From the IMG/VR virus record IMGVR_UViG_3300030098_002632, positions 1-34,996 of that record: a stretch of DNA of 34,996 nt. One strand, given 5' to 3'. Of the stretch, positions 23,175 through 34,996 are shown one piece after another. Both the position numbers and the translations under genes were made by a program. The notes below the pieces were generated by a model. That model made no database searches. It was not told the DNA's origin and saw nothing but the letters and a program-made list of their open reading frames with translations. Numbering within the stretch: the stretch's first letter is position 1; each line of letters starts with the position of its first letter. This DNA comes from a virus.

Positions 23175-23795
23175 ATGAAAAAGTTTATATTCGCACTTCT
23201 ATTAAGTTTATTTATATTTGAAAATTCAAGCGCAGATATTGAATGGAACGCTGCAATCACAAATGAATACATCTGGAGAGGTATGTCGCAAGGAGATGGA
23301 GTTGCTGTTTCTGGTGGAATAGATGTTTATAACGATACAGGATTATCAGCTGGGATATGGGTATCAAATGTCGATTTTGGAGATGATACAACTTATGAGC
23401 TTGATGTTTATGTCGGATATAATATCGGATTTTTAAACATTGGATATATTTACTATGCTTTTCCAGATAATACTGGTGAAGATTACAATTCTGGAGAAGT
23501 AAATCTTTCTGCCGATATAGGAGTTTTTACTATTGCAGCAAATATTCTAGCTCATGCTGATTGGGAAATGGATTTTGGAGATGAGATTTATTACTCAATT
23601 GATACTGCTTTTGGAGTAACTGATAATATCGATTTAAGTCTGCATCTTGGTCTATACGATTATGATTTAGATGATGATGAAACAGATTATGGAATGTCTA
23701 TTGATTTTCACTCTGGTTTCTCACTTGGAATAATTGATAGCACTAGAGATGATAGCGATCCTTTCTTAGTTATTACTTACTCACTTAATGGATAG
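23175..23795 (+). CDS. Phage-encoded outer-membrane porin-like protein (TorF family)
   Basis: 206 aa. A classic signal peptide (residues 1-20, basic 'MKK', hydrophobic core, cleavage after 'SSA') is followed by 'TNEYIWRGMSQGDGVAVSGG', the hallmark 'Y-x-x-R-G-x-S-Q' opening of TorF-type putative porins. Alternating beta strands follow to the C-terminus ('DLSLHLGLYDYDLDDDETDY', 'PFLVITYSLNG'). It should form a small beta barrel in the host outer membrane. It is a little shorter than the 220-250 aa I expect for this family. AAGGAG precedes the ATG. Phage use is probably receptor masking/superinfection exclusion or lysogenic conversion, as with lambda lom; that is inference. Confidence 0.82.
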   Translation: MKKFIFALLLSLFIFENSSADIEWNAAITNEYIWRGMSQGDGVAVSGGIDVYNDTGLSAGIWVSNVDFGDDTTYELDVYVGYNIGFLNIGYIYYAFPDNTGEDYNSGEVNLSADIGVFTIAANILAHADWEMDFGDEIYYSIDTAFGVTDNIDLSLHLGLYDYDLDDDETDYGMSIDFHSGFSLGIIDSTRDDSDPFLVITYSLNG

Positions 23796-23824: not shown

Positions 23825-23959
23825 ATGAAAAATTTAATGATACTGATACTGCCATTATTTTTAATGGCTTGTGGATCTTCAAGAATAATGCTTAATGCAG
23901 ATATTCCACAAGATACAGAAATCAAAATTCAGATCGAAACAGATCAGAAAAGCGAATAA
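23825..23959 (+). CDS. 44-aa lipoprotein
   Basis: ATG at 23825, with GGAG upstream, encodes 44 residues. Residues 1-16 are a lipoprotein signal ending in the lipobox L-M-A-C (Cys16), followed by 'GSSRIMLNADIPQDTE'. The mature part is only about 29 residues and charged. It follows the porin gene by 29 bp and its TAA shares a base with the next ATG. It might be an o-spanin (Rz1-like), although it is not proline-rich, or a Bor-like surface lipoprotein accompanying the porin. Confidence 0.68.
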   Translation: MKNLMILILPLFLMACGSSRIMLNADIPQDTEIKIQIETDQKSE

Positions 23960-24264
23960 TGTATATCTATAAAGCAATGAAAGTTCGAGTTGTATCTGGT
24001 GATACGATCAAATGTTTCATAGATCTTGGATTTAATGTTTCACTACAATCTATGCGAGTAAAGCTTCTAAATTTAAAAGCTCCAACTGGCATTGCTGGTG
24101 ATAAAGCAAAAGCTCATCTCGATAGTATTTTGCCAGAAAAATTCTCTATAAAAACAAGAATTGAGGACGGCATAATCATTGCTGATGTTATGAGCGGCGG
24201 AGAAAGCATTAATCAAAAAATGCTCGACTCTGGAATGTGTGAGAAGTTCACGAAAGATGAATAA
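23959..24264 (+). CDS. Degenerate staphylococcal-nuclease-fold protein
   Basis: 101 aa. 'KVRVVSGDTIKCFIDLGFNV' and 'MRVKLLNLKAPTGIAGDKAK' align by eye with the SNase/thermonuclease pattern: G-D-T, then R-x-x-L-x-x-I-D-x-P-E. D15 and R33 are kept. The calcium ligand Asp and catalytic Glu of 'I-D-x-P-E' are replaced by K40 and T43, so nuclease activity is unlikely. The family's usual second catalytic Arg region is shortened too. It may keep a binding role. It is the last gene of the rightward late/cargo run, before the attP-like region. Confidence 0.68.
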   Translation: MYIYKAMKVRVVSGDTIKCFIDLGFNVSLQSMRVKLLNLKAPTGIAGDKAKAHLDSILPEKFSIKTRIEDGIIIADVMSGGESINQKMLDSGMCEKFTKDE

Positions 24265-24269
24265 TAATT

Positions 24270-24295
24270 CTCTCGCCTTTATCTCGCCTTTTTTA
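24270..24295 (+). repeat. Arm-type direct repeat, copy 1
   Basis: 26 bp, 25 identical to 24500-24525. Each copy is itself two tandem 11-bp units built on TCTCGCCTTT. The copies stand on either side of the core inverted repeats, as integrase arm sites do in lambda P and P' arms. Confidence 0.7.
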
Positions 24296-24313
24296 GTGTA
24301 AAAACACACTACT

Positions 24314-24349
24314 AAGCATAATTAAGCATATACATATTAGGAAAGCATA
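24314..24349 (+). repeat. Three AAGCATA sites in helical phase
   Basis: AAGCATA at 24314-24320, 24324-24330 and 24343-24349. Start-to-start distances are 10 and 19 bp, near one and two helical turns, so all three lie on the same face of DNA. Such phased short repeats between arm and core sites are typical of excisionase (Xis) or accessory factor binding. Confidence 0.55.
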
Positions 24350-24399
24350 AATTCCTAAAACCTAATCCCACCTTTAATAAGCGATGTAAAATAAGGCTT

Positions 24400-24451
24400 T
24401 ACGACCACTCAAAAATCGGTAGAATACTGTTTTTGGGAAACAGTGGTCGTA
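24400..24451. other. Candidate attP core: nested inverted repeats resembling a tRNA-Pro anticodon arm
   Basis: The outer arms are TACGACCACT (24400-24409) and AGTGGTCGTA (24442-24451), perfectly complementary. The inner arms are ACTGTTT (24426-24432) and AAACAGT (24438-24444) around TTGGG. Read as a tRNA, CTGTT-TTTGGGA-AACAG is a 5-bp stem with the 7-nt loop TTTGGGA, identical to the anticodon loop of the tRNA-Pro(UGG) at 26166-26243. The next bases (TGGTCGTAG) also resemble that tRNA's variable-loop region (AGGTCGCAG). Similarity ends before the T-arm. Confidence 0.5.
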
Positions 24452-24499
24452 GCCCTCTAAACCGCAGAAATCCAACACTTTTACCAAAATAACACAAAA

Positions 24500-24525
24500 C
24501 TCTCGCCTTTTTCTCGCCTTTTTTA
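24500..24525 (+). repeat. Arm-type direct repeat, copy 2
   Basis: Same orientation as copy 1 with a single mismatch (T24511 for A24281), 230 bp apart. It ends 4 bp before the operator and next to the integrase -35, so integrase binding could also repress its own promoter. Confidence 0.7.
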
Positions 24526-24555
24526 TTGATTAATGTGCCACATTAACTGTATAAT
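24526..24555 (+). promoter_or_regulatory. Integrase promoter with operator palindrome between -35 and -10
   Basis: TTGATT (24526-24531), 18-bp spacer, TATAAT (24550-24555, perfect -10). The palindrome TTAATGT-GCC-ACATTAA (24530-24546) lies between and overlaps the -35, an ideal place for a repressor to block RNA polymerase. The start codon is 29 bp after the -10, with AGGAG as ribosome binding site. Confidence 0.75.
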
Positions 24556-24583
24556 AAGGCATATTAACAAATAGGAGAAAACG

Positions 24584-25924
24584 ATGATTAATATAACTAC
24601 TAGAAAAATTGGCGAAGCTTCATACTGGGTTGCAGATTTTAGATATGCGCCGAGTGGTTTTTCAGTTGAGGACTGGAAGCAAAAATCAGATGAGTTAGTT
24701 GCCGCAAAACTTTTACCTAAAAATAAAAGATTAAATATTAACAAATCAAAAATGAATAAAAATGCTGTACGCGAAAAGTGCGCAGCATTAATTAACGATG
24801 TTCACGACCACGATATGAGTAAAGATATATTGATGGTGAAAGATCTTTTTGCAGATACTACTGGCATTGAAGATTTTGACTGGAAGCAGCATGAGAATTA
24901 TTTAGGTCGTAGATATGCAGTGGATCTAAAATTAAATAGATCTATCACGCAATCCACTTTTGATTACGAATTAAATCTTTGCAAAAAAATTGTAAAACTT
25001 TTTGGTGATAAAAACTGGTCTAAATTAAATGCTGAAAATTGCATGGTTGAATTAAGACAATATTGCGCTGACAATGCTAACGATTTAGAAACTGAGGATC
25101 TTCGATTAGCAAGTTCTTATGGAACATTTAAAAGATCTTTTAATTTGCTTAAAGCGATCTCCAGATACTTAAATAAATTCTATCAAGTTAAGGATGTTTT
25201 TGCTGATGTATTATTAAAAGATTTTCCTGCTCCAAAAATTATTTCTGATTATAACGAAATTAAAGATGCTAGAACTGATGCAGTTAATGTTGATGATGTT
25301 TTATATTACACTGAGCAAAGTTATTTAAAAGGCATCCATAACCGTCCAGAGCATCTTAGAAACTTATGGCTTGAGCAGTTACTTATTACGATCGAAATGT
25401 TTAAGAGAACTGGTATGAGAAAAGGTGAACTTCTTGCGTTGACTTGGGATGATCTACAGTTAGTTGAAAAGGGCAACAGAAAATTTGCTACTTTATCAAT
25501 TAACAAAAGCTTTAACAGAAATACCCAAATATTAAGCAAGCCTAAAACTGCTAAAGGTGTAAGAACCGTTCCTTTATCTTTTGATTTTTATGAAAGATTA
25601 ATGGCTTATAAAGAGATCCAAATAGAGAGCGAATTAATGTTTCCTAACTCCGTAGGTAAATATGATACCAGAGATCGTTTTGGTAAGGCTCTAAGAGCAG
25701 GAAATAAGCTTGTACATGGCAGCAATAAATCAAAGTATTTAACTGTACACGGCATCCGCCATTTCTACGCAACGAAGTTCTTAAATGAAAATCAAGGATC
25801 TTTAGATGACTTATCAGTTCTTTTAGGACATACTGATCCTGCTACAACTATTAAGAACTATGTTGATAACAGAAATATACCAACTGATAGACTTGCTGAT
25901 ATAGCAGATAGAATAGGAGCTTAA
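24584..25924 (+). CDS. int: Tyrosine integrase
   Basis: 446 aa. All catalytic elements are visible: R279 ('KRTGMRKGELLALTWDD'), the lysine of the beta hairpin ('SKPKTAKGVRTVPL'), H389-x-x-R392 ('TVHGIRHFYATKF'), H416 ('LLGHTDPATT') and nucleophile Y426 ('IKNYVD'). Residues 1-100 are the arm-binding/AP2-like N-terminal part, and about 105-210 the core-binding SAM-like domain. It catalyses phage integration at attP x attB and, with a directionality factor, excision. AGGAG lies ahead of the ATG. Its promoter carries the phage's operator palindrome, so expression is tied to the immunity circuit. The next small gene follows after 1 bp. Confidence 0.95.
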   Translation: MINITTRKIGEASYWVADFRYAPSGFSVEDWKQKSDELVAAKLLPKNKRLNINKSKMNKNAVREKCAALINDVHDHDMSKDILMVKDLFADTTGIEDFDWKQHENYLGRRYAVDLKLNRSITQSTFDYELNLCKKIVKLFGDKNWSKLNAENCMVELRQYCADNANDLETEDLRLASSYGTFKRSFNLLKAISRYLNKFYQVKDVFADVLLKDFPAPKIISDYNEIKDARTDAVNVDDVLYYTEQSYLKGIHNRPEHLRNLWLEQLLITIEMFKRTGMRKGELLALTWDDLQLVEKGNRKFATLSINKSFNRNTQILSKPKTAKGVRTVPLSFDFYERLMAYKEIQIESELMFPNSVGKYDTRDRFGKALRAGNKLVHGSNKSKYLTVHGIRHFYATKFLNENQGSLDDLSVLLGHTDPATTIKNYVDNRNIPTDRLADIADRIGA

Positions 25925-25925
25925 A

Positions 25926-26150
25926 ATGAAATATGTAAAAAATTTTTTTATAGATGAAGCTGCTGGTGAAAAATTATGGATTCATAAACTTCGAGATAAG
26001 ACTGGAAAAACTTTTACATTAAAATCTACAGTACAGCATACTGATAAAGAAGTTACAGAAAAATTATATACATTTTATAAAGATTTAATTAATCGAGATG
26101 GAACATTTAAAAGAGATTTTGAACTTTATAGTTATTATGCTAAATACTAA
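25926..26150 (+). CDS. Small basic hypothetical protein co-transcribed with int
   Basis: 74 aa, starting 1 bp after the integrase stop. It is rich in Lys and aromatic residues ('YVKNFFIDEAAGEKLWIHKL' and 'LYTFYKDLINRDGTFKRDFE'). No HTH is obvious. Being coupled to int it might assist recombination or be a small regulatory protein. I do not recognise a family. Confidence 0.55.
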   Translation: MKYVKNFFIDEAAGEKLWIHKLRDKTGKTFTLKSTVQHTDKEVTEKLYTFYKDLINRDGTFKRDFELYSYYAKY

Positions 26151-26165
26151 TCCGTGATGTAAGGA

Positions 26166-26243
26166 CGGAGTGTAGCGCAGTCTGGTTAGCGCACGCGCTT
26201 TGGGAGCGTGAGGTCGCAGGTTCGAATCCTGCCACTCCGACCA
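26166..26243 (+). tRNA. tRNA-Pro(UGG), complete with encoded CCA
   Basis: Acceptor stem CGGAGTG/CACTCCG (26166-26172 with 26233-26239), discriminator A, CCA 26241-26243. D-stem GCGC/GCGC. Anticodon stem CGCGC/GCGTG (one G-U pair) with loop TTTGGGA, so anticodon TGG at 26201-26203. T-arm GCAGG-TTCGAAT-CCTGC. Every stem pairs, so the gene looks functional. It is the only tRNA gene seen. Anticodon UGG reads CCA, which is the dominant proline codon here (14 of 16 in the capsid gene by my count). Because it is complete, it is cargo rather than a leftover attP tail. Confidence 0.96.
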
Positions 26244-34984: not shown

Positions 34985-34996
34985 GGTTGTTCGCGG
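34985..34996. other. Right copy of 12-bp terminal repeat (cos)
   Basis: Exact copy of bases 1-12. Joined through this repeat, the molecule is a circle of 34,984 bp, and the late genes at 33.6-34.9 kb run straight into the terminase genes. Confidence 0.6.

Follow-up and report, generated by a model that had tools for sequence, protein, structure and literature searches.

A tRNA-Pro anticodon-arm mimic beside the integrase gene of a marine siphovirus and its probable role in tRNA-dependent lysogeny

The phage genome and its integration module

The window, by which we mean the whole stretch of DNA analyzed in this work, is a virus record of 34,996 bases with the gene set of a lambda-like siphovirus, including TerL, a lambda-type portal, a capsid with protease, tail genes and an Erf-type annealing protein. 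Positions 1-12 and 34985-34996 share the identical 12-nt sequence GGTTGTTCGCGG, which looks like filled-in lambda-type cohesive ends. Since the same sequence stands at both ends, the genome is probably complete, although IMG/VR classes the record as linear. The best TerL match in the annotated phage collection was found among the Roseobacter phages CRP-8xx (~53% identity). Of these, CRP-811, CRP-821 and CRP-823 have a head-tail gene order similar to that of the window phage; CRP-811 differs from it in having neither an annotated integrase nor a tRNA that could be found. A sister phage, represented by the contig IMGVR_UViG_3300020472_000287 (loci L003 and L005), is ~90-94% identical to the window phage across most of the shared region. 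The 206-aa ORF at positions 23175-23795 of the window is absent from the same place in L005.

The integration module comprises, in this order and all on the plus strand where oriented, a small nuclease gene (23959-24264), the putative attP (~24262-24530), the integrase gene int (24584-25924), a 74-aa ORF (25926-26150) and a tRNA-Pro(UGG) gene (26166-26243). The nuclease gene, which lies on the other side of attP from int, resembles the phrog_452 endonuclease (E 1.9e-9) and served as the query to fetch relatives. The intact int gene encodes a protein of 446 aa that carries the HGIR and LGHTDPATTIKNYVD motifs and matches both Pfam PF00589 (E 1.8e-15) and the phrog_1 integrases (E 8.7e-29), which places it in the tyrosine family that characterizes tRNA-dependent lysogeny.

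The candidate attP core, CTGTT-TTTGGGA-AACAG (CTGTTTTTGGGAAACAG), occurs once in the window, upstream of int at positions 24427-24443 on the plus strand, with a probable overlap region at 24432-24438. It is surrounded by four copies of CTCGCCTT, found nowhere else in the window, that are candidates for arm-type integrase sites: a left pair at 24272 and 24283 (24272-24290, 11-bp spacing) and a right pair at 24502 and 24513 (24502-24520), both on the plus strand. Arm-type sites on both sides of the core are also characteristic of tRNA-dependent lysogeny. In the sister phage both left copies read CTCGTCTT with the same C to T change, as would be expected if binding sites change along with the protein that recognizes them. 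The core is also retained in the sister phage, and the surrounding ~128 bp contain a single change; the DNA between the left arms and the core has been replaced. Taken together, the core, the arm repeats and the integrase suggest a lambda-type attP layout. A 10-bp perfect inverted repeat, TACGACCACT/AGTGGTCGTA, which the first-pass annotation did not mention, occupies positions 24400-24451 (arms 24400-24409 and 24442-24451, 32 nt apart). The repeat is kept in L003 and extends with its right arm into the right core-type site; it may represent an additional Int or Xis site or a hairpin. An Rfam search of attP returned nothing credible.

The only tRNA found by ARAGORN in the window is the complete tRNA-Pro(UGG) at 26166-26243, which begins 242 bp past int on the same strand, has the anticodon loop TTTGGGA and encodes its own CCA (3' end ...CCGACCA). 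It is thus of the same isotype as the loop of the attP core and, by extension, as the host gene that would be broken. Since this tRNA has the prolyl identity elements C1-G72, A73 and G35-G36, it is expected to be charged. The stem of its anticodon arm, CGCGC/GCGTG, differs from that of the core. The whole anticodon arm is exactly matched in the tRNA arrays of two other phages, which points to a phage pedigree of this tRNA.

Resemblance of the attP core to tRNA-Pro

The 7-nt center of the core, TTTGGGA, is identical to the tRNA-Pro(UGG) anticodon loop and is flanked by a perfect 5-bp stem. It is followed at 24444-24452 (plus strand) by TGGTCGTAG, which corresponds in register to the variable region and the first T-stem bases of a tRNA; the phage tRNA has AGGTCGCAG at an equal distance, and GGTCG stands 3' of the core at the spacing of tRNA-Pro. 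The likeness stops at this point. Beyond GTAG the phage reads CCCTCTAAACCGC, with no T-arm, T-loop GTTCRA, acceptor stem or CCA, and hence attP does not carry the tRNA 3' half typical of canonical sites. These results bear out what the first-pass annotation had reported of the locus, namely the identity of the core loop with that of the phage tRNA, the variable-region-like bases that end before the T-arm and the complete, CCA-bearing tRNA beside int. Reading the core as an anticodon loop on the minus strand was rejected because TCCCAAA lacks U33.

The probability of such a resemblance by chance was assessed in two ways. Among 100,000 simulated regions of 200 nt with the dinucleotide make-up of the window, the loop 7-mer occurred 1,628 times, whereas neither its combination with a 5-bp stem nor that with GGTCG in register was obtained (0 in each case); the product of the separate frequencies gives an expectation of ~2e-5 for loop and stem together. 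We also scored the region between the arms against 27 tRNAs from a single genome, G014, which belongs to the likely host order. The best scores were obtained with tRNA-Pro(GGG) (13.2 over 33 nt, in register) and tRNA-Pro(UGG) (10.2), and the longest exact match was to tRNA-Pro(UGG), with 9 contiguous bp (TTTTGGGAA). Of 1,500 dinucleotide shuffles, four reached at least 13.2 with any tRNA and four reached at least 10.2 with tRNA-Pro(UGG), while none scored at least 10.2 with both tRNA-Pro genes. A chance resemblance to tRNA-Pro therefore appears unlikely.

Candidate host and search for the attachment site

The candidate host order was identified through a relative that uses a different tRNA. 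The syntenic contig L006 has the same gene order as the window phage up to the nuclease gene and terminates in CTTTTAATCAGCTTGTCGTAGGTTCGATCCC. This sequence is a tRNA-Lys(UUU) 3' half that starts at the anticodon loop and forms a canonical att site. Its region L006:3960-4138 holds other arm repeats (GTTTGCACAAA, two copies) together with this canonical tRNA-Lys 3' half. From this comparison, integration modules appear to be swapped among close relatives. The tRNA-Lys 30-mer of L006 was detected in only four GTDB genomes (SFB_27D_100_8, TMED109, MarineAlpha9_Bin3 and cluster2_bin.140), all of which are metagenome-assembled genomes (MAGs) of marine Alphaproteobacteria from one order of 28 genomes. 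In cluster2_bin.140, an integrase gene adjoins half a tRNA-Lys (L015:6759-8000), and therefore integration at the anticodon loop occurs in this alphaproteobacterial order. We infer that the order containing TMED109 and MarineAlpha9_Bin3 also hosts the window phage; no close TerL or integrase match was found in its 28 genomes.

Within the candidate order, the genomes with an exact match have the tRNA-Pro anticodon arm CCTGT-TTTGGGA-ACAGG. A detailed scan of G014 revealed one UGG and one GGG tRNA-Pro gene, and in all but one of the MAGs in which it was found, these being incomplete genomes, tRNA-Pro(UGG) is encoded by a single gene. The exception, G006, has a second copy at L051:1407-1560, near the end of a contig where its neighbors are tRNA-Gly, tuf and tRNA-Trp, and this contig may be a binning contaminant. 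Several tRNA-Pro(UGG) genes in the host were named beforehand as an argument against the break-and-replace reading; this may apply to G006, and the other candidate-order MAGs in which the gene was found show one copy.

A host attB in a tRNA-Pro anticodon arm had been predicted by the first-pass annotation, and none was found. The exact 23-bp core was detected in none of the GTDB genomes and, among viral contigs, only in the sister phage L003; the tRNA-Pro of the candidate order has only 9 contiguous bp in common with it. With up to one mismatch, the core had 15 matches in 385 Alphaproteobacteria, 0 of them in a tRNA; with up to three mismatches, it was absent from the two orders searched. The CTGTT/AACAG stem was seen in none of the sampled alphaproteobacterial tRNA-Pro genes. 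The closest to the right core half are the tRNA-Pro(UGG) genes of genomes G218 and G102, where the anticodon arm is likewise followed by TGGTCGTAG. Prophage junctions of the window phage, which were also proposed as a check, were sought and none were found: the half-cores expected at attL and attR matched only L003 and L010 among viral contigs. The latter match (L010:3984-4001, TTTTGGGAAACAGTGGTCGT-GCC) falls within an ORF for a small membrane protein on an unrelated viral contig and was judged to be due to chance. Peptide patterns recovered no integrase relatives from viral contigs, and the integrases matched in annotated phages were all distant. These outcomes leave two options, a host that has yet to be sequenced or a shared core of ~9 bp; the 9 bp shared with the tRNA-Pro of the candidate order would be the size of known short cores.

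Junctions were modeled by joining the tRNA-Pro gene of G014, as a representative of the presumed host, and the phage at TTTGGGA. ARAGORN detected a tRNA in attB but none in the resulting attL or attR, in agreement with the earlier claim that this attP does not restore the tRNA.

A probable case of tRNA-dependent lysogeny

The integrase would bind the four arm repeats and catalyze recombination between the 7-bp TTTGGGA in attP and the anticodon-loop segment of the host tRNA-Pro(UGG) gene. Because attP lacks the T-arm and acceptor stem, the host tRNA would be rebuilt at neither junction. The lost function would be replaced by the complete phage tRNA-Pro(UGG) downstream of int, and the lysogen would therefore depend on the prophage. 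The anticodon stem of the phage tRNA, by differing from the core, would also stop integration into the phage's own gene. We consider such tRNA-dependent lysogeny, in which the phage breaks the tRNA-Pro gene of its presumed host and supplies the replacement, the best explanation of the locus and a reasonably probable one. The break-and-replace reading in the first-pass annotation is partly supported, as the best fit to the sequence and as a match to a published mechanism; the host attB, the junctions and the dependence of the lysogen are its predicted elements.

The main rival, which is possible though rather unlikely, attributes a translational role to the phage tRNA. It would serve lytic growth by supplying codons or by replacing tRNA cut by host defences, the likeness of the core would be an accident or a relic, and attB would lie elsewhere. 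The share of CCA among proline codons, which is higher in the phage (61%) than in the likely host (43%), is consistent with such a role, as are the pedigree of the anticodon arm among phage tRNA arrays, unrelated to attB, and the outcome of the attB search. However, the single tRNA of this phage sits in its integration module, and the core fits the same isoacceptor in loop, stem and variable region, all in register. If integration does occur in tRNA-Pro(UGG), the host could still be independent of the phage tRNA, owing to a second gene copy or to a host gene that remains functional, and the phage tRNA would then be a fitness bonus. The two copies in G006 agree with this view, but one of them is the suspected contaminant, the other candidate-order genomes with a match have a single UGG gene (G014 having one UGG and one GGG) and the modeled attL and attR contain no tRNA; we regard it as improbable. 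Canonical integration, in which attP would restore the host tRNA 3' half and the match would look short only because the host tRNA is unusual, has precedents in L006 and the L015 island, both at tRNA-Lys. Given that the sequence past GTAG has no T-loop, acceptor stem or CCA and that ARAGORN finds no tRNA in the modeled attL, we find this explanation barely credible.

Tentatively, tRNA-dependent lysogeny could be combined with promoter capture, a refinement to which we assign little likelihood. Since int, the 74-aa ORF and the tRNA of the phage are all oriented like the core, the host promoter of the disrupted tRNA-Pro gene would face the replacement tRNA; it would drive int, the ORF and the tRNA after integration and couple tRNA supply to integration. 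Between int and the tRNA, no promoter-like site stood clearly above background.

Guerrero-Bustamante and Hatfull described tRNA-dependent lysogeny and put it to the test in 2024 (PMC10865867). In the published systems, cores of 8-17 bp do not rebuild the tRNA, the cognate phage tRNA is required, and close relatives differ in having canonical or non-restoring att sites; the tRNA of Fionnbharth is not closely related to that of its host (PMC10865867). The actinophages with this lifestyle, Fionnbharth (K4), LeBron/Gabriela (L), Cain (K6) and Gaia (X), belong to another lineage and infect another host phylum than the window phage, and the tabulated isotypes are Lys-TTT, Ile2-CAT and Leu-CAA rather than Pro(UGG) (PMC10865867). 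The window phage further differs from them in that its tRNA immediately follows int in the same orientation and that its attB and dependence are putative. A second group, the Rhizobium vTRX32-1-like podoviruses described in 2021, uses a 12-bp core within tRNA-Leu and carries a tRNA-Leu without the core motif, which is presumed to take over from the disrupted gene (PMC8631192). These phages have alphaproteobacterial hosts, as would the window phage, but are podoviruses, use tRNA-Leu and have junctions known from prophages (PMC8631192). A similar case comes from a Sinorhizobium study (PMC12429752, PMC11476347). Canonical anticodon-loop integration, as in actinophage Boilgate, L006 and the L015 island at tRNA-Lys, shares the anticodon-loop sublocation and a tyrosine integrase with the window phage; its attP, in contrast, carries the whole tRNA 3' half that the window attP lacks.

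The window phage is probably a further case of tRNA-dependent lysogeny. The mechanism is already known, in Alphaproteobacteria too; new would be its occurrence in this phage group and in a marine setting, and Pro(UGG) as the isotype. The prevalence of this lifestyle outside Actinobacteria was left open in 2024 (PMC10865867). If confirmed, our finding would extend tRNA-dependent lysogeny to a siphovirus that infects streamlined marine Alphaproteobacteria, has relatives with canonical tRNA integration and adds a new isotype. It would also suggest repeated, independent switches between integration modes, and prophages that may be indispensable to some ocean bacteria with small genomes.
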